NCBI GenBank assembly: GCA_025765615.1
Contig: JAIVFJ010000130.1
Location: forward strand, 1-64,000
DNA: 64,000 bases
From: Zopfochytrium polystomum
Taxonomy: Eukaryota; Chytridiomycota; Chytridiomycetes; Chytridiales; Chytridiaceae
Direction: 5' to 3'
In this document: one piece after another, positions 479 through 34,964 of the stretch
How the letters are laid out: each line of letters begins with the position of its first letter
Position numbering within the stretch: position 1 is the stretch's first letter
Made by a program: the position numbers and the translations under genes
Notes under the pieces: model-generated
The model's input: only the letters and a program-made list of their open reading frames with translations
What the model was told of the DNA's origin: nothing
Databases searched by the model: none

Positions 479-1267
479 ATGTTCCTCTCCCTTCTCGACG
501 AAGCGCTCCGCCTCCACGCTCACAATCGCCCACTGGCACACCGCAGGCCACACGCAGCCGCCGTGGACACGCCCATACAGCAGCCTCCCGCCCTTCCTCA
601 ATGGTTTACTCATTCCGGTGCAAACGGCCATCAACTCTACTACGCCGCAGTCCTTCCCGCCGTGCCCACACTGCTCATACTGCAGCCCCCTTTCCAAGCA
701 GGACCTGCTCCCTTCCTTCCCAGTCCCATCCAAGAACCATGTGAAGGCGAATGTCCTTCAAGTTCTGAGGCAAAAACGGCGTCGATGTGCGCAACCCCTG
801 CTCCGATCGCGGCGGAAGATCACCAGCTCGCGACAGCAGTCGCCGAAACAGAACCGCCGTCGTCGTCCGCAAACAGACCATCACTCGCAACGCCCCGCCT
901 CTCTCAAACCCCCGCAGTCTCTCCCACCTCCCTGTCCACCGACGCACCACCCCCTCCGCGTCCCGCATTACCGACGCCGCCGCCGCCGCAACCGCGCCAG
1001 ACCTCCCCGTCGCCGACGCCCGGCAAGGTGCAATGGATGCCCAAGAAATGCCCGCACGGAAAGCGGCGCACGCAATGCCTGGCCTGCTTCGACTTGGGCG
1101 ACGGCGGCGGGTCGATCTGCCCGCACCGCCGGAGGAAGGACTTGTGCGGAGCGTGCAAACGGGCGAGGAAGGAAGTCAAAACCGCGACGGCAGCGGCCGC
1201 GGAGGCGTCGGACGGAGCGGCGGGTCGCACAATGCCGTTCTCGGTTGAGGCGCTTTTGGGCCACTAG
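479..1267 (+). CDS. Double-CxH zinc-module family protein, member 1
   Basis: A single-exon ORF of 262 residues if the ATG at 479 is used; the frame is open back to an ATG at 356, so the start is uncertain. Residues 191-226 form the family module: C-P-H then C-L-A-C, ten residues, then I-C-P-H and C-G-A-C, with spacing C-x-H-x6-C-x2-C in both halves. Upstream is Pro/Ser/Ala-rich and looks disordered. The protein ends in FSVEALLGH, the family's EH1-like motif, here placed at the extreme C-terminus. It lacks the EGSPTPEI tail. The module sequence (CPHGKRRTQC, then RRRKDLC) lies between the two main subfamilies. I do not recognise the family by name; zinc binding is inferred from the Cys/His spacing. 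It shares ALRLHAHNRP with the decayed copy at about 2.1 kb. Confidence 0.75.
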   Translation: MFLSLLDEALRLHAHNRPLAHRRPHAAAVDTPIQQPPALPQWFTHSGANGHQLYYAAVLPAVPTLLILQPPFQAGPAPFLPSPIQEPCEGECPSSSEAKTASMCATPAPIAAEDHQLATAVAETEPPSSSANRPSLATPRLSQTPAVSPTSLSTDAPPPPRPALPTPPPPQPRQTSPSPTPGKVQWMPKKCPHGKRRTQCLACFDLGDGGGSICPHRRRKDLCGACKRARKEVKTATAAAAEASDGAAGRTMPFSVEALLGH

Positions 1268-2017
1268 TAATAAGTGTGATGCGAGGTCTGCTGGCAGTGT
1301 AGAAGGAAAAGTGATTGAGCGGTCTTTAATGTAAATATAATCGTCCGCTTCCCCACACTCGCGGACTCTTGTTCTTCTTGCGTTCTCTCCGATGAGCAAC
1401 AGAGTTCACGCTGCTCCGAACTGCAATTACTCGCCGACCCAAGAGGGTTGATTCGGGGACAGCTGGAGAGCACGGAGGGCCCCCGATCATGCTTATCCTC
1501 CTGGATTTGATCATTCACTCATTGCACATCTTTGCTAACTTCGTTCTTCCAACTATCTCTGAACGATGGGCATGTACTGGGATAGTGAGAATGAACGCTG
1601 TCACCAGCACGAGTAAGTCCACATTCCTCCCTTCCAAGTATTTGTTCCAACTATTTAAATATTGACGCTTGCTAAAGACGCCTTCATGAGGGCACGAGGT
1701 TTCTTCGAAAGGTGATCCCTTTCGCTCCTTCCCATGCACCGCACGTTTTTTTTTTTTTTTTTTTTTTTTTTGGTAAATAAGATTTGGTCGATGGCGATTG
1801 GTAAGCGAAAACACACAAACCGCGTTTACCGCTCAAAGCGATTTTCTTCCAGTTTCCGCTTCCGCCGGACAACACGCACACCATCCGGCTGGAATTCAGC
1901 CAAAGCCGGCGGGACCACCGCCTACCGCCGACGGGCGAACCAGAAAAGAGATCCACCATACGGCTCTCACTTTACCCTCCGCTCAGGTATCGTGTCAGCA
2001 AGTGAAAGGCAAGCTCA
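1268..2017. other. Intergenic region with poly-T tract
   Basis: No convincing gene is present. It contains a 26-base T run (1746-1771) and probably the degraded 5' part of the pseudogene that follows. Short ORFs here are low-complexity and do not match the neighbouring family. Confidence 0.4.
1746..1771. repeat. Poly-T tract
   Basis: An uninterrupted run of 26 T. It could be a simple-sequence expansion or the A-tail of a retroposed copy on the minus strand; nothing else supports retroposition. Confidence 0.9.
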
Positions 2018-2210
2018 TTGCCCCAGCCTCAGCCAGCCAGCCATTTTCCTTCCTCAGCGCTCCGTCTTCATGCCCATAACCGCCCACAGACAGAACACAG
2101 GCTTACAAGGAGTCGCTCGAGTCCTTTCTATCGAAGCACGCAGTGCCTATCGTGCTTCGACCTCGGCGACAATGGCGCGATCTTTCTGTGTTTCGCGTAC
2201 AAGCGGTTTG
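2018..2210 (+). pseudogene. Decayed member of the double-CxH family
   Basis: The translated frame contains ALRLHAHNRP, identical to a stretch of member 1 (about residues 10-20 from its ATG at 479). Then, at about 2138, it has TQCLSCFDLGDNGA, which matches the end of the first half-unit and the linker of the module. The CPHG start of the module, the GGGS linker and the second CHCC unit are lost or scrambled, and the text downstream has no family similarity. It is therefore a broken duplicate of the gene just upstream, and no functional protein is expected. Confidence 0.75.
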
Positions 2211-3597
2211 CTCAGTCTTTAGACCAGCTCCGAAATCCAGTCCGCGGCCGCCAAGCACTGTTGCTGGAGCTCGGAAATTGTGCTTCACAAACGCACTGGT
2301 GGAGTTTGAAGAGAAAGTGTAATGTGCCAACCCTAAGTTTTGTTGGTGCATTTACAAAAATGGCTGTTCAACAGCCATCCGCCAAGCAGATCACACGCTT
2401 TTCTCCAACGAACTACCGCCACTCTCCACTGCCTCTACTGGTGCGTATCTCTCGCTCCTCCAATCCTCCTTTCTCGCCAAATTGTCTGTCAAGCCTCCAA
2501 GCCAACCGCCATCTTCAGCTAATCACGACTCCAACGTTTCCAGCAAGCGAATCAACTCCTCTCCCACACGCCGACCCAATATGCTCGACTGCTCAGCGCC
2601 TGTTCAAGCAGGTTTACCGTGGATCTGAGTTCACCCCTGCCGAAAGACGATGTGCCCTGAGAGACGTGGTTGAAGCGGCTGTGTTGGCGAGGTAGTGGGG
2701 GGGAGGGGACGGTGTTTGGGCTTGGGGTGGTTGAACGGGATGCGGCAGGAGGGGTGAGGAAGGGTCAGGTGTGCTCCGAAGCTTTCCCAGCAAGGGACGA
2801 ACGAAAATTTTTTTTGTGGGTGGAGACAGGCCGGCCGTGCCAGATACAGAATGGCTGTGACGTACGGTAGACTAGAGCGTGGGCGGTAAGCCGTTCGCTG
2901 AGGTAGCGTTGAAGAGTGGATCTTAGTGTGTGTGCATGTGCATGTGCGTGTGCGTGTGTGTGGAGAGAGAGAGCGAGCGAGCGAGTGGGCTGGGCAGATC
3001 CTCACGGGGTACTTGGCGGTGTGGAAGGAATAGCGGACTACGAGGACCATCGAATCAGTGGCTGCGCGGCCCCTGGTCTCCACTCTGGGTGTGTTTTTGT
3101 TCTGCGGCAAGCAAACACTTCCGAATCAGGCAGGCGCATGTCCATAAGAGGCAATAACTGTAAGCAATGGAATTCGCTCAATCCCGAAATTTCCACCCAA
3201 TACCTACCTCTTTGGGGCTTGCCGCACACCTTCGGTGGGCCGAAGTGAAAGAAGTCAAAAACACCTGGCCCTTTCCTATGAAGACAGCAGAAAAATCCGC
3301 AATGGATGTGGGTGTTTTTTGGTTTTTTGTTTTTGTTTGTTGTTGTTTCTCTGTTGACCGTCGGTTTTGCTGGCTTTGTTGGACGAGATCGGACAAAGAC
3401 AGGGACAGGCAGGCAGACACACAGACAGACAGAGGGAGGTGCAGGGCAGACACCTCCCCCAAGGTTGATTGATTTCAAACAGATATTAACACACTACATA
3501 TGTATTGTTTATCTAAAAGCAGAACAGTGCGGCGCGCACACCAAGCACAGCCACGTGAGAAGCGCTTGCGGCTGCGCTTCCTTCTTTGTCGCTCACG
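2211..3597. other. Intergenic region with GT and CAGA repeats
   Basis: No gene is supported. It holds a GT/GC microsatellite followed by a GAGC tract (2925-2984) and a GGCAGGCAGACACACAGACAG block (about 3408-3435) that resembles sequences upstream of other family members. ORFs on both strands here are short and repeat-derived. Confidence 0.4.
2925..2984. repeat. GT/GC-rich microsatellite followed by GAGC repeat
   Basis: Alternating tgtg/catg/cgtg units run into gagagagagcgagcgagcgag. This is a simple-sequence repeat and creates spurious Cys/Met-rich reading frames. Confidence 0.85.
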
Positions 3598-4374
3598 ATG
3601 GACCTTCACCATTACCGCCATGACGCCGCTGCTCCTCGTGCTTCCCGACAGCCGCCCGCTGGTGCTCTCGCAATCACTGGCCCCATCTCCCATCATTCGG
3701 CCGCCGGCGGGAACGCGTCCAGCAGCCAGCACGCAGGACCTGCCGAAGACCCGCAATTCTCTCGCTGGCACTTGTCCTGGCACCACTCCAACCCGGCAGG
3801 CGCTTCCTCTCGGCCGCCTTCCACGGACCGCCCCGAGCCAATCGAGAGACATGTCGCCAGATCTCTCACCACGATCGGGGCGGCCCAGGACGATCCAGGA
3901 CAAACCGCACCGCCGATGCCATACCCTGCACCCCCCGCTGCCGCGGAGCCAACCCAACCGCACCGCACCATCACCCCACCCACATCGCCGTCAAGCGCGC
4001 CCTCCGAAACTCCGACTTCAAGCATCACGATAACTACCACCACCAGTACAGCAGACCGCTACCACGGCCCGCCAAAGTGCCCACACGGCCGGCGCCGCAC
4101 GCAGTGCACGTCCTGCTTCGACCTCGGCACGGGCGGCGGGTCGATCTGTGTGCACCGGCGGCGCAAGGGCGTCTGCCTGACGTGTAAAGGGCTTCGCCGT
4201 GGTTCGTTGGTGGCGACGATGGCACCTCGGCGAGTCGGGCGCCCGCCTGGTTCTGGCTCACGTCAACGCAACGAGGTCTCTGGCGGCCACTGGTCCGGCT
4301 GCGAGATTCCAAACCCGTTTTCGATTGAGTTGATTCTTCGCTCAGGTGGGAAGGGCCACGAGAGGAGGTCGTGA
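3598..4374 (+). CDS. Double-CxH zinc-module family protein, member 2
   Basis: A single exon of 258 residues from the ATG at 3598 (MDLHHY, fitting the Met-polar-His/Tyr starts of relatives); an in-frame ATG at 3586 is an alternative. The N-terminal 155 residues are Pro/Ala/Thr/Ser-rich with no fold visible. The module lies at residues 161-196 and belongs to subfamily A (CPHGRRRTQC, TSC, FDLGTGGGSIC, then HRRRKGVC and LTC). All eight Cys/His ligands are present. After a Gly/Arg-rich linker comes NPFSIELILR, the EH1-like motif, 14 residues or so from the end. The function is unknown; a zinc-binding nuclear regulator is an inference. Confidence 0.8.
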   Translation: MDLHHYRHDAAAPRASRQPPAGALAITGPISHHSAAGGNASSSQHAGPAEDPQFSRWHLSWHHSNPAGASSRPPSTDRPEPIERHVARSLTTIGAAQDDPGQTAPPMPYPAPPAAAEPTQPHRTITPPTSPSSAPSETPTSSITITTTTSTADRYHGPPKCPHGRRRTQCTSCFDLGTGGGSICVHRRRKGVCLTCKGLRRGSLVATMAPRRVGRPPGSGSRQRNEVSGGHWSGCEIPNPFSIELILRSGGKGHERRS

Positions 4375-5359: not shown

Positions 5360-6331
5360 ATGCAGTACCACCAACAACCTACCCAACTCATCGGCCACCC
5401 GCCCGGCGCACCTCCAACGGGTCCCGTCCACCATTTTGTCCTGCTCCACGCTCCCGCCCACCCGGGCCACGCACCTTGGGCATGGTACGCCGCCCCGGAC
5501 CGCCACCACCCCTACGCCTACCACGGCTCCCCCAGCGCCCCCCAATTCTCCCACCACCAACTCCTTTCTGCCCCGGTCCTCGTCTCCAAGAAACCTTCAA
5601 CTCAAGTTGCGTACCGGCCATCCACGAAAGCGAGCCACCACGCCGTCGCCGCCGCCGCCGCACCCAAATCCCCGCCGCAATCCCCGCCGGCGACAAGTAG
5701 GACCACCCTCCGCGCACCAAGCCTCGGCGTAAGCCCCACCCCCACACGAGCCTCCCTCCCTCCACCTCCACCCACAACGACCACCCCCGCCATCACTCCT
5801 CGCCCAACCCCCCCAGCCCCTCCAACCCCTGCGACCACCACAGCCACCCCAACCAGCACCAGCGGCCCGCCAAAATGCCCGCACGGCCGCCGCCGCACAC
5901 AATGCACGCGCTGCTTCGATCTCGGCATCGGCGGCGGGTCGATCTGCGAGCACCGGAGACGGAAGGGGGTGTGCCCCGTCTGCCGTGGGGCGAAAGGGTC
6001 GTTGAGGAGGGGGAGGCCGCCGGTCGCTGTTGCCGTGGCGGCGGCAGCTGCGGCGGCGGCGATGGCGGCGGTGGTGACAGTCGCTCCGCCGACGACGACG
6101 GTGAAGGGGGGTAACCCGTTCTCGCTTGAGGCGCTGCTGGGAAGGCGTGGAGATGGCTGCGCGCGGGATGACGCCGGCGTGGACGTCGAGATGCATAATG
6201 GTGTAGAAGGCTGTGGGGACGCCGCTGCGGGCAACGATGACGATGACGCGGGCAGTCGGTCGCCGAGCCTGTGCGCGCCGTCCTCGAGTCGCGGGGACAG
6301 CGAGGGGTCGGCGACGCCGGAGATCCAGTGA
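5360..6331 (+). CDS. Double-CxH zinc-module family protein, member 3
   Basis: A single exon of 323 residues from the ATG at 5360 (MQYHQQ), chosen because other members also start MQ-; the frame is open upstream to 5255. Residues 1-165 are His/Pro/Ser/Thr-rich. The complete module sits at residues 173-208 (CPHGRRRTQC, TRC, FDLGIGGGSIC, EHRRRKGVC, PVC). It is followed by a Gly/Arg linker, an Ala/Val-rich tract, NPFSLEALLG (EH1-like), an acidic Asp-rich stretch and a C-terminal EGSATPEIQ. It is the only subfamily A copy that keeps the TPEI tail, so that tail is probably ancestral. Confidence 0.82.
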   Translation: MQYHQQPTQLIGHPPGAPPTGPVHHFVLLHAPAHPGHAPWAWYAAPDRHHPYAYHGSPSAPQFSHHQLLSAPVLVSKKPSTQVAYRPSTKASHHAVAAAAAPKSPPQSPPATSRTTLRAPSLGVSPTPTRASLPPPPPTTTTPAITPRPTPPAPPTPATTTATPTSTSGPPKCPHGRRRTQCTRCFDLGIGGGSICEHRRRKGVCPVCRGAKGSLRRGRPPVAVAVAAAAAAAAMAAVVTVAPPTTTVKGGNPFSLEALLGRRGDGCARDDAGVDVEMHNGVEGCGDAAAGNDDDDAGSRSPSLCAPSSSRGDSEGSATPEIQ

Positions 6332-6987: not shown

Positions 6988-7623
6988 ATGGCGAACCACC
7001 ATCGACCAGCACCAATCCATTGGACCGCCCACGCCCGGCCCCTTCTTCGGCATGATGAACCGCCTGCACCGACGCGCCATTTGCAGTCCACCTCTTTACC
7101 ACCTGTACCAAGTCCGGCGACTCTAGGCCCGCATCCAACAAGCCCAAGCCGTTCGCCGCAGAATCATCTTCCACCTTACGTCCCCGTGCTCAAGGCGCCA
7201 CTCAAAGGCGATCCCCATATAGCCGCACCTCCCCAGCGGCCCCCCGAACCTCCCCCGCAAACACCCCCCAGCACACCATCCCTCGCCTCCACCTTCCCCC
7301 TCCCATCCTCCATCACCATCATCGCCACCACCACAACCACTTCCGCATCGGCACCACCAGGCCCGCCAAAATGCCCGCACGGCCGCCGCCGCACACAGTG
7401 CACTTCTTGCTTCGACCTCGGCACGGGCGGCGGGTCCATCTGCGTGCACCGTCGGCGGAAGGGCGTGTGCCCGCGGTGCAAGGGAACGGTGCGGCGCGGG
7501 CGTCGGCGGCCGCTGCTGGCTGTTTCCTTTGGTGCGCGTGAGGATCGAGACACGACGGCGAAGGGGAAGGCGAGCGCGTTTTCGATCGAGGCGCTGATGG
7601 GGTGGGTGACGAGTCGAATGTGA
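6988..7623 (+). CDS. Double-CxH zinc-module family protein, member 4
   Basis: A single exon of 211 residues from the ATG at 6988 (MANHH); the frame opens upstream to an ATG at 6859 within A-rich sequence, which is less likely to be used. Residues 1-125 are Pro/Thr/His-rich. The intact module occupies residues 129-164 (CPHGRRRTQC, TSC, FDLGTGGGSIC, VHRRRKGVC, PRC), nearly identical to that of member 2. An Arg-rich linker leads to SAFSIEALMG close to the C-terminus. There is no TPEI tail. It is the shortest member. Its role is unknown; see the family findings. Confidence 0.8.
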   Translation: MANHHRPAPIHWTAHARPLLRHDEPPAPTRHLQSTSLPPVPSPATLGPHPTSPSRSPQNHLPPYVPVLKAPLKGDPHIAAPPQRPPEPPPQTPPSTPSLASTFPLPSSITIIATTTTTSASAPPGPPKCPHGRRRTQCTSCFDLGTGGGSICVHRRRKGVCPRCKGTVRRGRRRPLLAVSFGAREDRDTTAKGKASAFSIEALMGWVTSRM

Positions 7624-8916: not shown

Positions 8917-9127
8917 GGTTGGGGGTCAGGCCTTGGAAGTTTCAAAGACTGCCCAACGCCAGGTGATGATTGGCTACTTTTATTTCTCAATAAAATGAGA
9001 AAGAAAAGGAAAAGGACAAAAAAAAATTTTGTGAAAGACACGATCTTCACGGGCTTTTGCCGAGCACACATCCCAGAACCAAACAGATAGTTGGATAAAG
9101 ATAGAACATATAAAATGTTTAACGGTT

Positions 9128-12100
9128 TCATGGATTTGTCACAACTGAAAAGGGACTCCTAGTTCGCTGTGAAGGCGGTGAGGCATCAAAGTGGACCAGG
9201 CTGCTTGAAGATGGCAGGGTGTTCTCCTTATCATCTGGAAAGAGAGAGAAATCTGCAGCTTTAGCTTTCATCTTGCTGAAGCTTCGAGGAGTTGGGATTG
9301 GCATTTCGCATGGGTCTGTGCGAATAGATTTTGTTTGTTTTTTCTCCTGCCGATGGCTTGAATCTTTTCGGCAGGCAGGATTGTTCCATGACCTCAAATC
9401 TTCCTCTGCAGTCTTATCAATATAGGTTTTTCCTGATGATACTCTTCCAATAGAAAATCCACGCTTTTCATTGGGTATGTTGACATACTTTTCCGCAACC
9501 AGAATAGCATTGACTGATGACTTGAGTTCTTCTGCATTTGATTTATCATTCCTTCCACATCCGCCAGACCTATCCTTTTCCCGCACATGATTGAAGGTTT
9601 GTTCAACTGGGTTTGTTCCAAGGCTGCGAGTATTCAAGACTGGGAAAGGAACTTCATCCTTTTTCTTTGCATCTTCTGCATCCTGAATATTCTCAGGTAG
9701 GCTCAGCAAATTCTTGAGAAGAGCTTTCAAAGCCGCTGCATTCATTAGGATGCCCCACACAACTTCACTGTTCAGACCAGAGAAATGTGACTTTGTTGCA
9801 GTTAGAGGGGATGATAATTCGCTTCCAAGCTTTGCTTGGAAGTATTGCATGACTTCATCACATACTGCCATTCTTTCGCTTTCAGGAAGTCCTCGAGTGT
9901 CAAATGCATCATAAAAGCGAGCAATCATGCCTGCAAATTCTGCCTCCTTGTGATAGCCGAGATCAGTAAGCTGTTTGATGACTGGTTTGCTAAAGGCCAG
10001 CCGTCCTTGCTCAACATCCATTGCATCACGATCCCACCACTTTCTTGGAAGAATTTTTGAGTCTGAATCTGATTCTGTTACTTGTTTCCACGCTTCACTG
10101 GGGCTGAGATCTGCAAATTCTTTGAGCTTGAGAAAGTTTCGGACCAGTCGTTTGCACTTTAGGTGAGCTGGGTCCTCAAAAAAGGTCAGCAAGTGCTTTC
10201 CAGATAGATCATGCCGGTTCTTTGGTGGAATGTGAAGGGCTTTCCGAATGTCCTGTCCAGGAAAGTGTTTCACTTCAAGGCTCGTCGCCTCCACATCAAG
10301 AAAGTCATTCTTCATGTCTTTGAGCAGAAAAAGCTCCTTTGATAGGTTTGCCCTACTTCCTGACTGCAGAAGTTGCAGTTTAAGTATTTTATAGTCTGTG
10401 AGGTGCCATAGACGGTCTCGCAGTGTGCAATCATTGGCAAGCTTGTTACAAATGTCTTCAAGTCCTTCCATTTGACATAACCCTTCCACAACAGAAGCAA
10501 AGCTGGTTCTGCGAAGCTTTTCATACTCCATTCTTTGGCCGACTGCTGCAGCGTGCTCACTAACTTGAATCCATTTCCTCATCTCTGCAGAGCCACTGTC
10601 ATTCATTTTCAGACAATCCTTGCCAGACAATATGATTGATGTAACGGACTGAAGAGTCTTTTTGTGCTGCTGAATTAAGCCTGCTGCTACTTTCTTGGCG
10701 TTTTTCCATATATCTTTCTTGGCTGTTTTGAAGCCATGGAGTGCTTCTCTCACCTCCTGTTCTGCAAGACCCTCCTGAGTTTTGGCAGAATGGAGATTCC
10801 TTGTTGTTTCAAAAAGATTCTGTGCAGGCAGTAGGAGTGTTGGCTCAATATCAGCAGTTGTTAGGTTTGAGCAGCCTGGATGAATGCTTGCACAGACGCT
10901 GAGAAGTGGTCTAATTTCAGCAGTGGGATTTGAGTTGCCACCAGACCAAGCACTGGTGCTCAATCTTTTGAAAGTAAGACAGTAGCTGCCACAATCCATT
11001 AAGATCTGGTAGTAAAGAGCAGAAAACATGACCTTCTTCCATACTTTTTGCAGGTGATCATCATCAATATTGCAGGAAGGCCCATCCAGTTGCCACCCCA
11101 AAGAGCTGCATTTTCGAACAAAGTTGTTCTCTTCAATCTCCACATGCAGCTGGTGGGTTGGGAAGCTTGAGATATTGTTGTGTCCTTTCGACTGCTCCTG
11201 TATCAGCTCCATTTCCATATCATCATCCACTTCCCTTAAGTCTGCTTGAGTAGAAGGACCCCCCAGCTCTCCTAAATCTGACACAATGTCTTCAGTCACT
11301 GCCTTGTTCAAAGCCTCCAGCTTTTTTGCATCAAGCAGTTTGCGACGTTGAGAAGATTGCGTTTGCATATCATGGCAGTCTGATTCTCGCTTTCGCTTCA
11401 GCGAAGGGTGTTTTAGTATCAAGTCCTTCTCCAGGAATGCAGAAAGTGACAGATGGGCTTCAGGGCATCTACCCTCAGGAGCCTTTATGTAATCAGACGC
11501 CTTCTCAATGATGTGGTCTGCAGCAGCAAGAATGCGTGAAGTTTTGTCTTTCCCTGAATGAAGCTTTGTATGTTTGGCATATGCTGCATGTGCAAGTCGG
11601 GAGACTGCAAGAAATGAGCTTGGGGTTGAATTGTTGTAAGGAAAGTGAGCAACCTGTGCGGTTGCTCCATCTGTTGTCCAGCTAGTTATTGGAATCCCAA
11701 GTTCTGCCATAGATTGAGAGGCATCAAGAAAGTGCTTTCGAGTTTGATCAATGCTGGAGCTTGAAGTCATATATGTTTTGTAGACAGAAGTCTGAGAATT
11801 CTGTGTGTCTGTCACAGTCAAGGCTGTCACATAATGAGCCTGATCCACAAGGGCTGCCTCAACTGCACACATAGATTTTGCCATGCCTGAAATAAGCTGT
11901 CTCAACAGCAATTTGAATCCTTGGGGAAGGAAATCTGTTGAGTCATATTGAATGTGGGCATAACGATGATCTTCTGGACCAGTCAGGCCAAGCCGAGCTT
12001 CCTGGTTTCGGCATTGATTGCAAAGCCAGTAGTATACGCAAAGGCCAAGCACTGCTGGGTACTTTTTTTGCATGAGGCCGCCCAATTTGCTCAAGCGGTG

Positions 12101-13745
12101 GCTGCGAACATTAAGTGTCTTACTTTGACCTGGTGTTGGCTCTGCATGCTGATTCTGTTGACGTCGACGAGAAACACATCTTTCAATGTTCTGCTTTGTC
12201 TTTTCAAAAGCTTGCAACTCATGGTTGTATGCAAGCTGCAATCTTGTGTGAGCTCTCAGGAGTTCCTTAGACAAATCCAGTGTATACTCAAGAATATCTC
12301 TCCAGCCACATGCAAGAAATCCGTCGTCTGGCTTATTGAGGCAATTCATTCTTATCAAAGAAGCTCGAAGTGCTCTTCGGAGCGACTGGGAAACAATTAG
12401 CACCATTCTTGTCAAAGGCTTTCCAAAACAACAAACTTACCATCTCACATGTCTTTGTTTCCTTGAATTTCCTCCATTTATTGGTGTTGCTTGAAACGTC
12501 TGCAGCATGAAGAAACTGTCCTCGGTAAAGACTAAAGGACACTGGGGCTGGTGCACCAATTGTCATATCATCCAGGGCTGCCACAAAGGACACATTTACA
12601 GGAACTTCAAGCATCAACCTATGTGCAGAGCCAACAATAAGACCAGCCCTCTCTACTTGAGCTGTATCAGAAGAGATCCCCATCAACTTAATACGTGCTC
12701 AAATTGCCCTTGTTGATGGAATCATGAGATCTCCTTGAAACTGAGATGGGTGAAATCTTGGGGTGTTGGTTTCATCACTGCAGTCAAGCCCCACAAATCC
12801 AGCACCCTTGAGCGAGTCGAAGAGACTACAACTATTTCTCAATTTGGAGTAAATGTAGATCCACTTGGCCCATTCCGGTGCTGAAAACAGTGATGCCGCA
12901 GCCTTTCCCACCAAGTTGTTGATGGTGTACATCTTAAACTGTGTGCATACAAAGTTGTACTGGAATCGACCAAGATCCAAATGACCAGATGAAACAGCCT
13001 TTGCAGCAAGCAATACAGCATCGTCTTTCTCTTCTGCACGGACTTTCGGAAGGACTTTAGAGCCATACAAATCAAGGAGTTTTTGAACAGAGGAGTCTTT
13101 CAAGTGCCACTTTGCACACCTGGAGTTCCATGACCTCAATTCATCCTTCAAAGACTTGACTTCTTGAGTTCTGATGCGCAAATCTGCCTCCAGTGTCTCC
13201 AATGACCTTGAATCTATTCTCACTGGCTTCATGTATGGGACATGTACAAATGCCATTTCAGCTGCCCACTGGTGCTCATGAACGAATTTGGATAAATTCA
13301 TAGCTAGTGAAGCGTGTTGCACATCACCAGAGAGTAAGCCCTTCAAGAAACCGCCACCCAGTTGTCCCAGGAGCAAGGTCCGTATTCCAGAACGAGTTGC
13401 AGCCCAAAAGTACTTTTCAAAATCTGTATCAGAGTCATCGGTAATCTGGGCAACTATAACATCAGCATGGGCAGTCATTTCTACAGTTATTTGCAGACGA
13501 GGGTCCTTGCCCTTGAAAATCGCAGTGAGTCCATTAAGGAGGAAGTACAGTGAGGTGCCCCAGTTAGGTTGGTTCCGCCTGTATTTTTCATACTCGCTAA
13601 CATCAATCTCGATTTCTGGAAGGAGATTGACTCCTTCGTGCTGTAGAGTTGCACCTCCAGGATCTGAGAGATATCCCTTGATGCGAACCCAAACTGCATT
13701 CTTCTCATTTCTCAGGAAGAGTCGCGTTTTGCGGTCTTTCCTCAT
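9128..13745 (-). pseudogene. P-element/THAP9-like transposase, interrupted by in-frame TGA
   Basis: The reading runs from an ATG at 13745 down to 12441, then a 55-nt GT-AG intron (12440-12386, GTAAGT to CCCAG), then 12385-9128, about 1,520 codons in all. One TGA at 12701-12699 interrupts exon 1 in frame; reading frame and protein-like composition continue on both sides of it. Family hints: TTDGATAQ (the SDGAS-like acidic motif of RNase-H-fold P-element transposases), EDPAHLKCKRLVRN (their DPxHLxKxxRN block), and near the end TNPVEQTFNHVR with GGCGRN (their LENFFGxIRxxGG block), in the right order. A long insertion rich in Leu and Lys lies between them. No THAP zinc finger was found; an upstream exon beyond 13745 is possible (acceptor-like ACCAG just before the ATG). 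Assignment is from motif memory and is moderate. Confidence 0.6.
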
Positions 13746-14913
13746 CGCAGCTGGTATGATGATATCTTTGTGGCTGAAATGTGTGTGGCTCAGCCTGCTT
13801 CACTTAAAGAAGCGAGGTCCTTTGTTCTATTGTTCTCAGTTGCCTGTTCCGCTTGTGGGAGAGGTCACAGATGCTCAAAGGTGCAATGATGCGCTGCAGA
13901 ATCCACCAGAAGAAAATCCCTAGAGCGTGCTGGCCTCCCCAACACTGGTTCTGCAAGGTGACAACAGCACTCCCACCTACGGCCGTTCAGCAGCAAGTGT
14001 GCGTCAGACCCTAACAGCAACCTGCTCCTTCAGAAGGTAAAAGTGCGGAGAGAATAAAAATCGAAAGGAAAAGTAGGCATATACCGAATAAGCAGTTGAG
14101 TGGCTGATAGTCCTGCTTATTCGTGAGCGTGGGGATAGAACCGACACTCAGGGACAACAGGACAGATCTGTGATAGCACAAGCAATCCCAGCTAGCGCAA
14201 CAAGAGCGCTAACAGACACTGCTGTAAAATATCGACAGTCTCTCACTGCGTAACTGAGAGGGGAGGGGTTAGCAGAAAAGCAAAACTTTGGGCAGAGTGA
14301 ACAGGTGGGATGGTAGGTTTATGAGCAGAGCCGTTCCTTCCTGCGTAGTGAGGCAACTGACTGAACAGGTGAACAATGAGACCTGAAGATGGCAAATTAG
14401 CAACCAGAGAGGATTCTATCTGTGTTATACCAGGGCCCTGAGCACAATTTCTGCAGCGTTGCGAAGGCGGTGGCGGTGGTGAGTTCTGACAGAGACGATG
14501 GCTTCTGTTGTGGACGATGTGGCTGACGGCAATTAGTACGGCAGAAATGATGACGATCTTGATGCAGGATGATGATGCTGACAGGATCAACGGCAATGGC
14601 TGCGATCGAAGTCGGGCGGCGGGGGTGGGTCGCAGTTTTTGAGAGCACGCCTTGTCAAATTTCTTGCACGTTTTTTCAATGTTTCATTTTTTTCTCTCCA
14701 ACAAGCTCTTCTTTTACACTTTTTGCTATGCGTTGCGTTGGGGACGCAAAAAGTTGGGGCAACTTCCAAGGCCTGGTTGGGGGTCAAAGACAGCCATGTT
14801 CGACCCCCCGTGTGTGTGTGCAGCCGCCACAGGATTTATATGTGACGCTTGCTCAACCAGCATCCCCCACGCCTCCAATCCTGACGAATACTTCTCCAGC
14901 CGGAGGACCCATA
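13746..14913. other. Right part of transposon and leader of member 5
   Basis: No further gene is supported. It holds the hairpin at 14085-14123, the right copy of the candidate terminal repeat near 14761 and, beyond it, the presumed leader of the next family gene. Confidence 0.4.
14085..14123. other. Perfect 11-bp hairpin in the 5' flank of the transposase
   Basis: CGAATAAGCAG at 14085-14095 is followed after 17 nt by its exact complement CTGCTTATTCG at 14113-14123. It lies upstream of the transposase start inside the putative element and could be a sub-terminal transposase site or a transcript structure. Confidence 0.7.
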
Positions 14914-15896
14914 ATGCACAACCAGTACCACCACTACCAGCCAAACAGGTCTACCAGCCGTGAAACATCCAGCAGCGACCGGCCTCCACACCGCATCGTC
15001 GTCGTCCCTCCGAGTTCCCATCCCCACGTCCCTTCCGCTGTCCCCACATGGAGCTGGTACCACTCAAGCCCCGCACACCCTTCTTCCTGGCCGTACGCAC
15101 CCCCACCAACCCCGCAATCCCACCACCACTATCCCTTCTACCACCACCCCCAGCCAGGCTACTTGCCCGCTCCACCGGTGGCGGCCCACACTCCTCGACT
15201 CCCCGCGCTCACTGGATCGCCGATCGCCTTGAACGGTAGATATCCCCCAAAGACCACCACAACCACCACCACGCGCACCCCGCCACCAACCCCGCCGATC
15301 GTCTCACCGCCGCTCGTCGCCGCCACAGCGACCACCCCGCGCACCCACTCCGATAACCCTTCTTCCGCCGGTTGCGGCCGTAGCAACGCGGACCCGACCC
15401 GTCGGCCAACGGCCGCTGCAACCGCAAGTAACAAAAGTGCGACGACACGGACGACGACCGCAAGCAGGAGCGGTGGCCCGCCGAAATGCCCGCACGGCCG
15501 CCGCCGCACGCAGTGCACGCGCTGCTACGACCTCGGCATCGGCGGCGGGTCCATCTGCGTGCACCGCCGGCGGAAGGGCTCCGCGCGGCAGCGGCGCAGC
15601 GGCGCAGAGGAAGGCCCGTGGCGGTTGTTGGGGATCCTGCCGCGGCGAGTTCGACCGGATCAGCGATCGCGAACCCGTTCTCGATCGAGGCGTTGCTGGC
15701 GCCGCGGCGGGTCGCGGCTGCGGCGGCGGCGGCGGGCGCGGAGTCGTCGTCCGCGGGCGATCGTGCAGCGCTGGCGCCGCCGCCCGTTGTTGTTATGGAA
15801 GACGCCGCGAGCCTGATGGCTTCGACCAGGTCGTTTTACCGCAGCGATTCCGCAGGGGACGCGAGCGGCGACGCGAGCGGCGAAGAGTCGACTTAG
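14914..15896 (+). pseudogene. Double-CxH family member 5, frameshifted in the module
   Basis: From the ATG at 14914 (MHNQYHH; the frame is open further upstream) the frame encodes a His/Pro-rich N-terminus and the first part of the module from residue 192 (CPHGRRRTQC, TRC, YDLGIGGGSIC, VHRRRKG). Where relatives have V-C-P-x-C, this copy reads SARQRR and carries on in the wrong frame as an Arg-rich extension to 15816. The expected family continuation (RGRPVAVV, then NPFSIEALLA, ending GEEST at 15896) is found in another frame from about 15590. An indel has therefore removed the last two Cys and separated the EH1-like motif. It may be a recent pseudogene, or may make a truncated protein with one and a half half-units. 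An assembly error is possible but would not explain the missing VCPxC. Confidence 0.75.
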
Positions 15897-17713: not shown

Positions 17714-19276
17714 ATGCAGCACTACTTTGGCCTTCCGCCTGAACGAAGCAGCCCAATGATGGACCCGCCTTCTCTCGACTTCCACACCCCGCACCACCGC
17801 CAGCAGGCCGATCACCCCCACCCCGCCGCCACCGTCTCGCACTACCAGGACTTCAACAACAACAACAACAACAACCAGCAACCCCATCGTCAACTGCTGT
17901 CCCTGCCGCCTCCGCGCCCGACCCACGCACTTCAGCGGCCCCAGTTCTCGCTTGACAACGCCGCCGCCCGCTACCACCCCTACGCAGCCCAGTTCTCGCT
18001 GGGCAAAACGGCTCTCCCTTCTCACTCGCCGTCAGCTCCCACTCCCACCGCACCGACAGCGCCTGCCACAGCACAGTACCAGCACCGCCGACACTCTGCA
18101 TTCGAACCTGCACCTGCTGCCGGGCACGGCAGTGTCCATCCTCGCAAAGACCACGAGCTGGAGACGCGAGCGAGTCACTCTGATCTGCGAATTGCGCAAC
18201 TTCAGCACGGAGCGTCTGTCGCGCTCGGCGTGCAAGACAAGGGTGTGGGGGCAAGACCGTCGCAAACATATGGTTTGCATGCGCAAAGCACGTCCGCGGG
18301 CTGGTCGCAAACTGCTCCCCCTCCAACCCCAACCGCCATCGACCACCAACCACGCTATCACCCCACCAACCCATCACCCACAACTCCGTTCACCACCACA
18401 ACCACCGCCTACAACCCCTCCGCACCCACTCCAAGCACCACCACCACCACACACCCTCACCCGCGTGGCCCCCCGAAATGCCCGCACGGCAAACGCCGCG
18501 CCCAATGCCTCGCCTGCTACGACCTCGGCCAAGGAGGCGGCTCCATCTGCCTCCACCGCCGCCGCCGCGACCTGTGCCCGTACTGCAAAGAAGAGCTCCT
18601 CCGCCTCCGCGCCGCCGGCGTCGTCGCCGCCACGCCGGCGTTGTTGGCGCCGCCGAGACGGAGGATTCGCGGGCCAAAGACTTACGTGCCAAGACCCCCG
18701 CCGCCGCCGGTGATGCCGCCGTTGATTGGGAGGGCCGGGAGGTCGAGGGGGAGGTCGGGGTCGGCGGCGGCGGCGGGGGTGCTGGTGAGGGGAGGGAACC
18801 CGGCGTTCTCGGTGGACTTTTTGCTGGCGCCGGCGGCCTCGCGGACGCCGCAACCGCCGATATCGTCATCATCGCTCACGGGTTCGCGGCCGTCTTCCGC
18901 GCCGGCGGCGTCGCCCAAGCTCGGCAGCGGCGGCGGCAGCAGTGGCGCGGCGACGCCGGCGCTTATCGCGGACGGCGTCGACAGCGAGGCGGGGTCGTCG
19001 GCGTCAGCGGCGGCGGCTGCGGTCTACGCTCCCGGGGCGTCCATCAGCTCCGTCGACTCGGCGCCGTCGGCGGCGGCCGCGTTGCTCCCGTCGCCGTCTG
19101 TTTCGCATAGGTCCGGCGTCGACGGGTGGTCGCCGCCGGAGCCGGTTACTGAGAGCTCGGGGATAGCGGGCGAGGGCTATTTGAAAGGGAGGACGGAGGA
19201 TGCGTCCGCTATGCGCTTTGAAGGGTCGCCGACGCCGGAGATTGACGGGGGGATGGTGGTGGAGAGAGGGTTCTAA
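17714..19276 (+). CDS. Double-CxH zinc-module family protein, member 6 (subfamily B)
   Basis: A single exon of 520 residues starting MQHYFGLPPE. The N-terminal half is Gln/His/Pro-rich with an Asn run (about residues 39-45). The module is at residues 256-291 and is of the B type (CPHGKRRAQC, LAC, YDLGQGGGSIC, LHRRRRDLC, PYC). After it come an Arg/Leu segment, the conserved block IRGPKTYVPRPPPPP, a Gly/Arg-rich stretch, NPAFSVDFLLAP (EH1-like), a long Ser/Ala-rich region and finally RFEGSPTPEI followed by a short variable end. The basic block plus the possible zinc unit would suit a nuclear, nucleic-acid- or protein-binding regulator; this is inference. Its closest relative is the duplicate at 20.7 kb. 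Confidence 0.85.
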   Translation: MQHYFGLPPERSSPMMDPPSLDFHTPHHRQQADHPHPAATVSHYQDFNNNNNNNQQPHRQLLSLPPPRPTHALQRPQFSLDNAAARYHPYAAQFSLGKTALPSHSPSAPTPTAPTAPATAQYQHRRHSAFEPAPAAGHGSVHPRKDHELETRASHSDLRIAQLQHGASVALGVQDKGVGARPSQTYGLHAQSTSAGWSQTAPPPTPTAIDHQPRYHPTNPSPTTPFTTTTTAYNPSAPTPSTTTTTHPHPRGPPKCPHGKRRAQCLACYDLGQGGGSICLHRRRRDLCPYCKEELLRLRAAGVVAATPALLAPPRRRIRGPKTYVPRPPPPPVMPPLIGRAGRSRGRSGSAAAAGVLVRGGNPAFSVDFLLAPAASRTPQPPISSSSLTGSRPSSAPAASPKLGSGGGSSGAATPALIADGVDSEAGSSASAAAAAVYAPGASISSVDSAPSAAAALLPSPSVSHRSGVDGWSPPEPVTESSGIAGEGYLKGRTEDASAMRFEGSPTPEIDGGMVVERGF

Positions 19277-19335
19277 CTAGGTGCATTATCTGTATCGGTT
19301 TAATATACATATGTTGCTGGTGGAATATGCAGTAT

Positions 19336-20200: not shown

Positions 20201-20201
20201 C

Positions 20202-20244
<43 letters not shown>
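20201..20244. repeat. (ACAG)n tetranucleotide repeat
   Basis: About eleven tandem GACA units in the leader of member 7, expanded relative to the three or so units in the matching place of the left duplicate. Confidence 0.9.
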
Positions 20245-20730: not shown

Positions 20731-22335
20731 ATGCAGCAGCACCACTTTGGCCTTCCGCCTGAGCGGGGCCTGCCTTCGCTTGGCTTCCATACCCCACACC
20801 ACCGCCAAAAGGCCGATCACCCCCAACCCGTCGCTGCCACAACGCATTTCCGGGACCTCAACAGGAGCTGCAGCAACCAGCAACCCCATCGCCAACAGCT
20901 ATCCCTGCCGCCACCGCGCCCGACCCACGCACTCCAGCGGTTCTCACATGACAACGCCGTCGCCCGCTTCCACCCCTACACGGCCCAGTTCCGCGACGCC
21001 GCGCTGGGCAAGGCTGCTCTCCCTTCTTCCTCCCCGTCAGGTGCCATCCCCACAGCCTCCAATGTCAACGCTACAGCGCAGACGCACTACCGCGGACACT
21101 TTGCATACGAACCGGCACCTGCTGCTGGGCACAACGGCCTCCATCACCGCACGCACCACGAGCTGGAGACGATAGTGAGTCACTCTGCACTCCGAATTGC
21201 GCAACTTCAGCACACAGCTGCCGGCACGCAAGACAAGGGTGTGGGGGCACGGCAGTCGCAAATGTTTGTTTTCCACTCGCACAGCACGTCCGCCCACCGG
21301 TCACCAACGGCTGCCGCTGCAACCCCGACTGCCGTCGACCACCAACCACGCTTCCACCCCATGAACCACCCCATCAACCACCCCATCAACCATCCCATCA
21401 ACCACACAATCAACCCCTCGCCCACAACTGCAACAACCACCACAACCAGTTCCGACACTCCCTCCGGATTCGCACCAACCCACCCAACCCCCTCAACCAC
21501 CACCACCGCGCCATCTATAACAACCACAGCAACCACCACCACACACCCTCACCCGCGTGGCCCCCCGAAATGCCCGCACGGCAAACGCCGCGCCCAATGT
21601 CTCGCCTGCTACGACCTCGGCCAAGGAGGCGGCTCCATCTGCCTCCACCGCCGCCGCCGCGACCTGTGCCCGTACTGCAAAGAAGATCTCCTCCGCCTCC
21701 GCGCCGCCTGCGTCGTCGCCGCCACGCCGGCGTTGTTGGCGCCGCCGAGACGGAGGATACGCGGGCCAAAGACTTACGTGCCGAGACCCCCGCCGCCGCC
21801 GGTGATGCCGCCGTTGATGGGGAGGGCCGGGAGGGCGAGGGGGAGGTCGGGGTCGGCGGCGGCGGGGGTGCTGGTGAGGGGAGGGAACCCGGCGTTCTCG
21901 GTGGACTTTTTGCTGGCGCCGGCGGCCTCGCGGACGCCGCAACCGCCGATATCGTCATCATCGCTCACGGGTTCGTGGCCGCCCTCCGCGCCGGCGGCAT
22001 CGCCCAAGCTCGGCACGGCGACGCCGGCGCTTGTTACGGACGGCGTCGACAGCGAGGCGGGGTCGTTGGCGTCTGCGGCGGCGGCTGCGGCGGAGTTCTA
22101 CGCGCGCGGGGCGTCCATCATCTCCGTCGACTCGGCGCCGTCGGCGGCGGCCGCGTTGCTCCCGTCGCCGTCTGTTTCGCAGAAGTCCGGCGTCGACGGG
22201 TGGTTGCCGCCGGAGCCGCTTACTGAGAGCTCGGGGATAGCAGGCGAGGGCTATTTGAAAGGGAGGATGGAGGATGCGTCCGCTATGCGCTTTGAAGGGT
22301 CGCCGACGCCGGAGATTGAGATCGAGGGGCGGTAG
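20731..22335 (+). CDS. Double-CxH zinc-module family protein, member 7 (subfamily B)
   Basis: A single exon of 534 residues starting MQQHHFGLPPE, the tandem duplicate of member 6. The B-type module is at residues 281-316 with all ligands intact and is identical to that of member 6 over the 36 residues. Then follow IRGPKTYVPRPPPPP, NPAFSVDFLLAP and a C-terminal RFEGSPTPEI. The C-terminal half is almost unchanged while the N-terminal half has diverged strongly by substitutions and indels. It carries a unique four-fold NHPI-type tandem repeat (DNA 21361-21408) just before the module. Conservation of the second half and free drift of the first suggests that function resides from the module onward. 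Confidence 0.85.
   Translation: MQQHHFGLPPERGLPSLGFHTPHHRQKADHPQPVAATTHFRDLNRSCSNQQPHRQQLSLPPPRPTHALQRFSHDNAVARFHPYTAQFRDAALGKAALPSSSPSGAIPTASNVNATAQTHYRGHFAYEPAPAAGHNGLHHRTHHELETIVSHSALRIAQLQHTAAGTQDKGVGARQSQMFVFHSHSTSAHRSPTAAAATPTAVDHQPRFHPMNHPINHPINHPINHTINPSPTTATTTTTSSDTPSGFAPTHPTPSTTTTAPSITTTATTTTHPHPRGPPKCPHGKRRAQCLACYDLGQGGGSICLHRRRRDLCPYCKEDLLRLRAACVVAATPALLAPPRRRIRGPKTYVPRPPPPPVMPPLMGRAGRARGRSGSAAAGVLVRGGNPAFSVDFLLAPAASRTPQPPISSSSLTGSWPPSAPAASPKLGTATPALVTDGVDSEAGSLASAAAAAAEFYARGASIISVDSAPSAAAALLPSPSVSQKSGVDGWLPPEPLTESSGIAGEGYLKGRMEDASAMRFEGSPTPEIEIEGR
21361..21408 (+). repeat. 12-bp coding tandem repeat (Asn-His-Pro-Ile)
   Basis: About four units of AACCACCCCATC within member 7, encoding N-H-P-I repeats. 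The unit is absent from the duplicate gene at 17.7 kb, so it expanded after the duplication. Confidence 0.9.
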
Positions 22336-22400
22336 AGAGAGGGTTCTAATTCGGTGCATCATCGGTTTAATATACATGTGTTGCTGGTCGAATATGCTCT

Positions 22401-31877: not shown

Positions 31878-31902
31878 GTGTGTGTGTGTGTGTGTGTGTG
31901 TG
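31878..31902. repeat. (TG)n microsatellite
   Basis: About twelve uninterrupted TG units. Confidence 0.9.
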
Positions 31903-32275
31903 CGAAATGCCGATTATTCACCAAAATCTATGCGCGCCGCCACCGATTGAAAGAGGGGGACGCCCACCCGCTCGAACGACGGGGGAGCACAATGTAAATA
32001 TTTACACGAAACAAGCGGCAATCACACCAAGACACTTACCGTGTTTTTTGCCATAATAGGCAATCTGTCTTCTTATGGGCACGCGGTGCGGAGCGTGCCA
32101 GCCACATAGAGGTTGTCTCAGCCCGCGGTCGCTTGGACATGCCGAGATTCCCATCATTATCATCTCGCGCCCCTTCGCTGCACTGGCACCCAGGCAGTGC
32201 TCGCCTCGCGCAAACATTTTGGCCAGCGGGCTGTCTTCATTGTGGGACAGGTCCGCTCTAGTCCCTCTTGGAAAT

Positions 32276-32285
32276 AGTATTTAAA
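32276..32285 (+). promoter_or_regulatory. TATA-like element of the small peptide gene
   Basis: TAGTATTTAAAAGGG lies about 100 bp before the ATG at 32384, the usual place for a TATA box with a short leader. Few other genes in the window show such a clear element. Confidence 0.5.
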
Positions 32286-32383
32286 AGGGGCGCGCCGCGG
32301 CCAGAACAAATTTCACAACAAAGCAAAAAAAAAAAAGAAAACAAGCCGCCGTAAACCCCCGCCTCATCTCTCAAACAATCAAC

Positions 32384-32616
32384 ATGCGCTTCCTCACGAT
32401 CGCTGTCGCCGTTTTGGCCCTTGTTGCCTCCGCCCTTGCCGCACCCGCTCCGGGTATGCTGAATTGTCAATGATCTTCACGCTTCTCGTCAATCAAAAGG
32501 CCTCCTTCTGACATCCCCTCTTTTTGGACCGCCTTGGCGGCTTAGGCGGTGGCGGCAGCGGCGACCCAGGCAGCGGCGGTAGCTGCGGCTCCGGCACCCC
32601 GTCCGAGTGCAGCTGA
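32384..32616 (+). CDS. Small secreted Gly-rich peptide (46 aa)
   Basis: Two exons, 32384-32453 and 32546-32616, joined across a 92-nt intron (GTATGC to TTAG, phase 1). The predicted product is 46 residues: a signal peptide (MRFLTIAVAVLALVASALAA) and then APAPGGGGSG and a Gly/Ser-rich end with two Cys. Cleavage after ALA or LAA would leave about 26 residues. It resembles in design the 94-residue secreted protein at 49 kb (same MRF start, signal peptide ending before APAP, one intron just after). Its function is unknown. It is too short for standard ORF calling, but the intron, frame and TATA-like box support it. Confidence 0.6.
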
Positions 32617-33538
32617 GATATCCACAAGGAAAGTCGGTCGGCTTCTTCTGTCAAGTCTGTTTGTGAAGGAAAAGGGGCGAAATAAAGTCTGTTGCAACCA
32701 AAAGACTTCCATATTCGTTTCTGCCCTGTCTTTAGTTGCCCAAGGACGGTGATCGGTGCATACATTTGCCACGGTTGTGAAGAATCAATCTCCCGATTGA
32801 CGAGAGCCTGTTGAAAAGAATGTCAGTGAGCCAGTTGGCAGCAGCTTTGAGGCTGCAGTGGCAGTTACAGACGTGAACACTGCATCGCGGAATAGATTTT
32901 CAAGTTCGTGTCTCTTCTAATCTCACCTCTTCACTTCCCCCTGGCTCTTAAGTTTACGTGGGGCGGACAGACACTTAAACAAACGCTGATACGGGGGAAC
33001 GCACAAGGTTTTCACTTTTGAAAGAGGAAGGCTTGCTGCACGGCGGTGGAGTCGAACCAGGATTGCGGGTGCGGTGGAGGGCGCGCCACCGGTCATGCAA
33101 AAACTCCACCCGTTATCAGCATCGATGTGGTTTGCATTGTTTTTCATAGCATGATTTCATCCAAAGAGAGGTGAAAGCCAAAGCGTGAGAAGGAGAGAGA
33201 AGAGCGAGCGAGGGTGTTGAGTGTAAGTGTGGGAAAGTGCTCGGGGATGGGAGCTGCGTGAGCGAGTGAAGCGCAGGATTGTCGAGAATCGGGAACGACA
33301 TAATGGGTCTGTGTGGGCGGCGGAACCCAAACCCGCAGGGGGCCGATTAGCCGGAAGATTGCGGTTTCATGAGTGACTTGGCGAGACTGGCATGGGGGAG
33401 GACAAGAGCTGCCTCTCTGTCTGCCGGTCTGCGGACCACCCGCAAACTTCAGCCTCAAGACCGCAACGACAGAAGTACGAGAGGGCGCCACAAAACTTTG
33501 TTGGACTCGCCACCTTTCTTTCTCAGCCCCCTCCCACC
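32617..33538. other. Intergenic region, no supported gene
   Basis: About 0.9 kb. A GGTTCGACTCC-like T-arm string occurs on the minus strand near 33,050, but no tRNA can be folded around it. The rest appears non-coding. Confidence 0.4.
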
Positions 33539-34964
33539 ATGCAGCAGCAACAACTGCCGCGTAACCACCACTGCTGCCCTCACCAACAGCCCCAGCACGA
33601 TTACCACCACCACCACCACCACCAGCACCACCAGTATTACCACCACCAACGACCGCCTGTGCGCTTCGATCAACCGTACCTGGCCCGCCGGGGTGAACCG
33701 GCTCTGGCGTCACAGTTATTCACGCGGCTAAGGCATCTCACTCAGGGACTTCATTTTGACGCGAGCCGCCATCACCCCTATCTTTCCACCGGAGCCCTCC
33801 CAACCGGTCATTCACGATCTGCGTGCCATCTGCAGTTCCTGCCGCGGCTGTTGCAGCAGTCGCAGCCCCCGCCAGGTCTCGTATTCGTCACCCCCACAGC
33901 GACCCTCAGACCCCGAGTCGAGCCATGCAGAACCTAAATTTGTCATTGGCCCCAGAGAACAAGAGGGGATTTGTCCACGAAAGGATCAATCTACCCAACC
34001 GAACGGCGGCAGCTTTCCAACACCACGATACGGCCAAGATCCCTCCTCCAATGACACGGCCCTGCCTCGAACATCCCACACCCCCAAACCAAACCACTCG
34101 CCGCCACCGCCATCGATCGTGACGACTTCATTTTACAACCGCCCACCGCCAGCTCAAACACAAACCCTTTCAAAACCCAAAGGCCCACCAAAATGCCCGC
34201 ACGGCAAGCGCCGCGCGCAGTGCCTCTCCTGCTACGACCTCGGCCAGGGCGGCGGGTCGATCTGCCTGCACCGCCGTCGCCGCGACCTCTGCCCGTTTTG
34301 CAGGAACGAAATTCTACACGGCCGCATCCCGCCGAGTGACGGGAGGTCAAAGACGCGGATCCGTGGGCCGAAGACGTATGTGCCGAGGCCACCGCCGCCG
34401 CCGCCGATGCCGGTGCTGGGTGGGAGGGGACGCAGGAGGACGTGCGTTGCGGCGGAAGTGGCGGTGACGGAGGCGGGTGGGGTGTCGGCGCCTCAGGGGA
34501 CGGTTGTCGAGAGGGAGAAGATGGTGCCGACTCGTTGCAGCAATCCGTTCTCGGTGGAAACGCTAATTGGGCCTAAGACAGCCCAAGAGGCGTCCGCGCT
34601 GCCGCAGGCTCGACCAGAGTCTGAAGGGCACTCGACGCCGAAACCTGCACAAGTTGTCGAGCAAGAGAGCTTTGACCGCAAAAGCTTTGAGGACAGAGAC
34701 GCTGCCGCGTTCACTCAATCACCTTTTTTATCGAATCGAGAATCATTTCGCGAAGCGTTCAAGCCGTCACCCTCGTTGATCACGCCGTCGCTTTCGTCAA
34801 TTTCCCCCTCGTTTTCCGCCGAAACTTGGCAGGAAGATCCCATTATCCGGCAGGCCCTCCGTGCGGACGCCTACGCTCTTGCAGTCGAAAGAGAGAGGGA
34901 AGGGTGTCGGCGATTCGAAGGTTCGCCAACACCTGAAATAGAAACAAACGAGAGGATAATTTGA
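33539..34964 (+). CDS. Double-CxH zinc-module family protein, member 8 (subfamily B), probable intron
   Basis: The best reading has two exons, 33539-33875 and 33931-34964 (456 residues), joined by a 55-nt GTCTCG-GCAG intron that restores frame. The start MQQQQLP matches other members' MQ- starts. Residues 20-40 include a His-rich tract. The B-type module is at residues 201-236 (CPHGKRRAQC, LSC, YDLGQGGGSIC, LHRRRRDLC, PFC), followed by IRGPKTYVPRPPPPP, NPFSVETLIG (EH1-like) and near the end RFEGSPTPEI. It lies 11 kb from the main array, next to housekeeping genes. The donor site is weak, so a frameshift in the non-conserved N-terminus is the alternative; an ATG at 33756 would give a 402-residue protein with the module either way. 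Confidence 0.75.

Follow-up and report, generated by a model that had tools for sequence, protein, structure and literature searches.

What do the tandemly arranged genes at one end of a contig of the chytrid Zopfochytrium polystomum encode, and what might their products do? The stretch analysed here (the window) is C130:1-64000 of an assembly of 80.16 Mb and 761 contigs. At seven of its loci, a six-frame scan detected an intact module of two Cys-His-Cys-Cys (CHCC) units, C-x-H-x6-C-x2-C / x10 / C-x-H-x6-C-x2-C, with eight potential metal ligands. With moderate confidence, we regard these genes as members of a family that has expanded and whose products putatively bind DNA and would recruit the Tup1 co-repressor.

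The two-unit module defines an expanded gene family

The module and its eight ligands at seven loci, the constant ligand pattern and the reality of the gene family, all proposed in an earlier note made from the window alone, were borne out by the six-frame scan and by a genome-wide tblastn search. The two halves are offset by 23 residues at all seven intact window loci, and a third CHCC unit is absent from these seven frames. Throughout the assembly, a 39-residue query gave 102 module matches at E ≤ 0.001, a count that is a lower bound and that excludes a chance origin of the module. Twenty of the 102 are partial, being either multi-unit genes that are split or copies that are decayed or frameshifted. 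Open frames containing both halves, taken from the fetched stretches and the window, numbered 81 on 28 contigs, with 48 distinct modules, and fell into 58 groups at 90% identity over module and flanks. Since these frames were chosen by the two-unit pattern, their ligand constancy is by construction; the fair count is that 81 of the best 82 tblastn matches have both halves and all ligands, the remaining one being a frameshifted copy. Beyond the ligands, R6, Q9, G17, GGGS (19-22), R27 and R29 are invariant in 48 of 48 distinct modules.

Clusters of copies occur on several contigs, with 19 on contig C129, 11 on C62, 8 on C130 and 6 on C1. That all copies lie on one strand, as had been stated, is true within the window but not genome-wide, where both strands of C129 and C62 are occupied. 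The C129 stretches align largely collinearly with the window, the longer pieces being about 90-98% identical, and the assembly probably holds two haplotypes; raw copy numbers would therefore exceed the haploid count.

The module is also under far stronger constraint than its flanks, with ratios of non-synonymous (dN) to synonymous (dS) rates of about 0.05-0.13 as compared to about 0.4-0.7, the flank rates being inflated by the frame changes or cut ends that several flanks contain. In ten hand-picked close pairs, nine across contigs (haplotype-like) and one within C130 (33732 with L018), the module showed a dN of 0.002 and a dS of 0.039 (2 non-synonymous and 10 synonymous changes), versus 0.067 and 0.100 for the N-terminal flank and 0.090 and 0.148 for the C-terminal flank. 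In seven paralogue pairs, the corresponding dN/dS values were 0.079/0.60 for the module, 0.78/1.81 for the N-terminal part and 0.60/1.16 for the C-terminal part.

Searches for a named family and structure prediction

The earlier note knew of no named family with this layout, and none was found in Pfam, in PHROGs or in the PDB, the last searched both with a profile of the module and by fold. Seven window proteins had no Pfam match above the cut-off and one window protein had no PHROGs match, so that no nuclease domain was detected in them by these scans either. Among 24 modules scanned against Pfam, the best E was 0.018, full scores and cut-offs being shown for the first module only. Matches to TRIM21, IMPDH and TerY_C were at chance level and were rejected. 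In open-licence PMC text, no paper contained ICEHGR, CKECGGS, CEHGRRK, CEHNRRK or CYDEGTGGS, and no title among those listed was tied to the layout. An initial protein search with a window member returned no more than four proteins, all from Zopfochytrium, although the genome contains a larger number. As this search missed known genomic copies, absence from other organisms is weak evidence. A search with L042 gave 1563 candidates, none at E ≤ 0.1, the protein's own family included; the low-complexity flank may dilute the score.

When folded alone, the module was modelled with a mean predicted local distance difference test score (pLDDT) of 78.6 and a core (residues 11-40) at 87-89, two of the five models lying near 50. 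The model has a short helix after each CxxC, at residues 19-24 and 42-49. Inside the full frame 33732-34961, the module was predicted less confidently than alone (pLDDT 48-76). In this frame, the one on which the claim that the rest of each protein is disordered was examined, 212 of 410 residues had a pLDDT below 50 and all was coil except for helices at 5-10, 188-195 and 370-393.

The pair appears to be a shortened chytrid array

Weak matches in the same genome, on C42, C117, C2, C322, C169 and C472, proved to be genes whose units are split by introns, and the C42 gene encodes five units after splicing. The introns of the longer Zopfochytrium relatives interrupt the text SQ|C, as seen in the DNA for L066 and L068 and from frame breaks for L069-L072. 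The seven intact window loci have both halves in one frame with no SQ|C intron, a property for which the 81 frames were selected.

Used as a query, the C42 gene retrieved 16 proteins, of which 2 belong to Zopfochytrium itself and the other 14 to further chytrids; all are hypothetical and lack a precomputed Pfam domain, and ten multi-unit relatives scanned against Pfam had no match above the cut-off. The 14 come from Siphonaria, Obelidium, Chytriomyces, Phlyctochytrium, Dinochytrium, Podochytrium, Irineochytrium, Blyttiomyces and Cladochytrium. A lineage look-up placed Dinochytrium, Irineochytrium and Obelidium, like Zopfochytrium polystomum itself, in Chytridiales and Cladochytrium in Cladochytriales; Siphonaria, Chytriomyces, Phlyctochytrium, Podochytrium and Blyttiomyces we take to be chytrids. 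Three to five units are present in 12 of the 16 relatives and fewer in P0015, P0018, P0019 and P0020, perhaps owing to the gene models. By eye, P0007, P0008, P0010, P0012 and P0013 have extra CxxC...CxxC pairs downstream, with no Pfam match above the cut-off.

Scored against units A, B and C of nine chosen relatives, with the ligand positions left out, half 1 of the Zopfochytrium module gave 23.0, 0.2 and -5.2, and half 2 gave 1.3, 7.6 and 1.1. Half 1 is thus most like unit A of the multi-unit protein, and half 2 most like its unit B. The pair is therefore better explained by shortening of an array than by the duplication of a single unit that the earlier note had put forward. In a tree of the 36-residue modules (36 sites only), the A+B spans taken from nine relatives cluster together at 99, and the 48 Zopfochytrium pairs have no split of their own.

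An eh1-like motif follows the module

A segment of the FS[VI]EALL kind lies downstream of the module and, judged by its residues, fits the animal eh1 (Groucho-binding) consensus F-S-I-x-x-I-L. The pattern [FYW][STG][VI][DEN]x[LIM][LIMCV] occurs downstream in 55 of the 81 frames, where shuffles lead one to expect 0.02, and upstream in none (0/81). A stricter form, [FY]S[VI]xx[LIM][LIMC], is found in 47 of the 81; if L is permitted at position 3, the number of frames rises to 56 of 81, and 36 of the 48 distinct modules are then followed by the motif. Variants include PFSVEALLG, AFSVEALCG and WFSVEWMCG. As controls, the motif is present in none of 16 multi-unit chytrid relatives and in 3 of 399 other open reading frames (ORFs) in the window, one of which is the tail that the frameshifted copy has lost from its frame.

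The genome also has two partial Tup_N matches above the cut-off; these may represent a single gene in its two haplotypes. According to passages of PMC4901127, Groucho is bound by EH1, and fungal MATalpha2 has an EH1-like motif that spans positions from a TUP1-interaction screen; parts of PMC3419727 describe binding of FxIxxIL by TLE1 and of Fep1 by the WD40 domain of Tup11.

Similar arrays precede endonuclease-like domains in viral contigs

The likeness to virus proteins mentioned in the earlier note was recovered as CHCC arrays in viral contigs. With a profile built from 24 modules, one viral contig was reached that has HNH-like text beside five units, and two-unit DNA patterns found 97 and 10 stretches in viral contigs, which yielded 94 frames. 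A composition filter dropped 50 of these as low-complexity (CNHCNH-like) and kept 44. Some of the 44, namely the SCHNYCRHH frames, L087, L170 and L094, were judged not to be of this family.

Linkers of x10 and x5 are mixed in L093, L115, L122 and L148, the x10 form being of the same LGxGGxSI type as in the Zopfochytrium module (e.g. KILGIGGGSI), and a window module is identical to L093 at 20 of 38 residues. With the ligands held fixed, the linker in six of seven viral pairs (four loci) is nearer to the family consensus than shuffles are (p 0.0009-0.0075; L122 0.10), and the intra-unit residues are hardly nearer (p 0.045-0.80). In a Foldseek comparison with viral models, a Pithovirus 'Endonuclease' ranked top (38 columns, root-mean-square deviation 0.8, probability 1.00, E 0.023), and none reached E ≤ 0.001. 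From these comparisons, homology between the Zopfochytrium module and the viral arrays is likely.

A PHROG endonuclease family was matched by 8 of 9 viral proteins scanned, with L084 matching weakly, and Pfam Endonuclease_7 exceeded the cut-off in 2 of 10. Among 15 viral proteins hand-picked from plus-strand frames with a C-terminal extension, phrog_3322, 3118 and 1035 were each matched by nine. Given that similar arrays precede HNH/endonuclease VII-like domains in uncultured viral contigs, the analogy suggests DNA binding by the module. A pattern scan for a prokaryotic origin produced 10 stretches; of the 7 frames inspected, only L188 and L189 look like arrays. L188, from an archaeal (Poseidoniales) assembly contig and perhaps viral, combines a CHCC array with EWHIDH nuclease-like text (HNH-like).

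We tentatively entertain, as a possibility that we would not favour, that an array for DNA recognition, common to virus and phage homing-type endonucleases, was taken up by chytrids without the nuclease and that, in Zopfochytrium, it was cut to two units, gained an eh1-like dock and multiplied to dozens of genes.

Proposed mechanism and its alternatives

In the mechanism that we favour, the genes would form that branch of a chytrid protein family which has expanded in Zopfochytrium, and their products would act in the nucleus. Each protein would start with a low-complexity, probably disordered N-terminus, followed by the compact two-unit CHCC module, which most likely holds two zinc ions and most likely contacts DNA through its Arg/Lys-rich loops. 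The tail would be mostly disordered, and the most likely partner of its eh1-like FS[VI]EALL peptide is a co-repressor of the Tup1/Groucho type, whose WD40 face would serve as the docking site. With module and dock in common and differences elsewhere, the copies would form a set of parallel repressors.

Several observations weigh against this mechanism. The module lacks a fold match in the PDB. The eh1-like motif occurs in 0 of the 16 multi-unit chytrid relatives (P0005-P0020), and its V/I form is missing from 26 of the 81 frames, 8 of which end within 45 residues past the module and 12 of which extend for at least 110. Moreover, the motif pattern was composed after inspection of the family, whose copies are related, so the 55 occurrences are not independent; eh1 is seven residues long and convergence may account for it, a point also made in a passage of PMC4901127. 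Some viral relatives also match the PHROGs 'decoy of host sigma70' (9/15) and Srd anti-sigma factor (7/15), and the array need not itself bind DNA for it to stand next to a nuclease. The allelic counts behind the constraint on the module are small.

The most probable alternative, though we think it rather unlikely, is an RNA-binding or chromatin scaffold, in which the basic CHCC pair would bind RNA or histones, while other partners would dock on FSVEALL, polyproline and SPTPE. The Arg-rich module would suit this role, and the present evidence does not separate RNA from DNA. Furthermore, RIRGPxTY or RGPxTY-like text, mostly followed by polyproline, occurs in 47 of the 81 frames versus 0.3 expected. 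The DNA endonuclease-like domains that follow the viral arrays and the specificity of the eh1 consensus match speak against this alternative. SPTPE-like tails are present in 20 of the 81 frames, a count without control; these tails, the RIRGPxTY-polyproline stretch and the eh1-like motif had not figured in the earlier note.

It seems improbable that the genes are mobile-element cargo, spread with a transposon or by retroposition and in many cases decaying. Such spread would accord with the scatter of both-half frames over 28 contigs, with the existence of frameshifted, remnant and partial copies, and with intronless window modules beside longer relatives that are intron-split at the units, but the tandem clusters argue against it, as does the constraint that the module shows in close pairs as well as in paralogues. 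Metal buffering by a metallothionein-like store of Cys/His pairs is very improbable, as the weak Metallothi_Euk2 matches in 6 of 24 modules (best E 0.018) are opposed by the strict spacing, the invariant GGGS and Arg, the fairly confident core of the module folded alone, and the long arms with conserved motifs.

Loci and other features of the window

The family loci are collected in Table 1. Eight loci and a decayed one had been listed; seven proved intact and the remnant was recovered, and the eighth (14914) apparently carries a frameshift, because its FSIEALL sits in another frame. The proposed starts hold for seven in-frame ATGs and fail for 33539, which lies outside the open frame of its module.

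Table 1. Family loci in the window; each intact module is given from its first Cys
Feature	Position	Strand	ATG at start	Module	Downstream motif	Remarks
Family ORF	479..1267	+	in frame	1049-1156	PFSVEALLG, 1238-1258	
Decayed module remnant QCLSCFDLGDNG	2132..2206	+				tblastn E 7e-6
Family ORF	3598..4374	+	in frame	4078-4185	NPFSIELIL, 4318-4338	
Family ORF	5360..6331	+	in frame	5876-5983	NPFSLEALLG, 6119-6139	variant outside V/I motif pattern
Family ORF	6988..7623	+	in frame	7372-7479	AFSIEALMG, 7579-7599	
Apparently frameshifted copy	14914..15896	+	in frame	half 1 and C-x-H of half 2, 15487-15585, then different frame	FSIEALL in ORF 15432-15896	homologue on C129 (L011) keeps both halves
Family ORF	17714..19276	+	in frame	18479-18586	AFSVDFLLA, 18806-18826	SPTPEI tail
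Family ORF	20731..22335	+	in frame	21571-21678	AFSVDFLLA, 21895-21915	SPTPEI tail
Family open frame	33732..34964	+	none 5' of module; first ATGs 34407 and 34521, both 3' of it	34194-34301	NPFSVETLIG, 34548-34568	predicted helix; SPTPEIE tail

Between these loci, 8928-14774 is a 5.8 kb insertion low in guanine and cytosine that is missing from the C129 haplotype. It has inverted ends GGCCTTGGAAGTT / AACTTCCAAGGCC, a flanking repeat TGGTTGGGGGTCA and a 1102-residue frame with no Pfam match above the cut-off, and it looks like a DNA transposon that is polymorphic between haplotypes. On the minus strand, a 668-residue frame at 40910-42913 contains a RING-H2 domain, residues 58-231 of the frame at 46156-47136 match isocitrate/isopropylmalate dehydrogenase, and two adjoining frames at 54735-58012 have weak F-box-like matches below the cut-off.

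Comparison with known systems

One of the nearest counterparts is the hypothetical, unnamed multi-unit chytrid protein (for example P0012 of Phlyctochytrium bullatum, P0013 of Dinochytrium kinnereticum and P0007 of Siphonaria sp.), which has in common with the window proteins C-x-H-x6-C-x2-C units every 23-24 residues, a DEG/GG linker and KRRSQC and HRRQ text. The PKTYRPR tail of some relatives also resembles RGPKTYVPR. The multi-unit proteins differ in their larger unit number (in 12 of 16), in the unit introns of their Zopfochytrium members and in lacking the eh1-like motif, whereas the window proteins have an A+B pair in a single frame plus that motif. If the repressor reading is right, it would account for a set of chytrid 'hypothetical proteins', and a zinc-binding unit that is nameless in the searched domain libraries would have become the basis of a large repressor-like family in an early-diverging fungus.

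Animal repressors with eh1 and fungal MATalpha2 with its EH1-like motif, as given in sections of PMC4901127, share the pattern F-S-[IV]-x-x-[IL]-[LIM] with the Zopfochytrium motif, which differs in lying C-terminal to a CHCC module.

The viral arrays that stand before HNH/endonuclease VII-like domains (L073, L093, L115 and L148) have the CHCC unit in common with the window proteins, but differ in their mostly x5 linkers and in the nuclease-like domain; for the Pithovirus LCPAC404 'Endonuclease', the likeness is by fold match only. If the repressor reading is right, the module would represent a new class of candidate DNA-binding domain, of the same kind of unit as in virus nucleases, and would allow an exchange between endonucleases and eukaryotic regulators to be tested. 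A precedent is the AP2/ERF domain, reported in portions of PMC5318435 from both plant transcription factors and HNH homing endonucleases: there, too, a DNA-binding unit is found both in endonucleases and in a regulator family that has expanded and is poor in introns, although domain and host are unrelated to the Zopfochytrium CHCC module. Were the uptake without the nuclease real, the Zopfochytrium genes would provide an independent fungal parallel to AP2 in HNH nucleases and plant regulators, and an expansion of zinc-finger repressors outside the C2H2 class.

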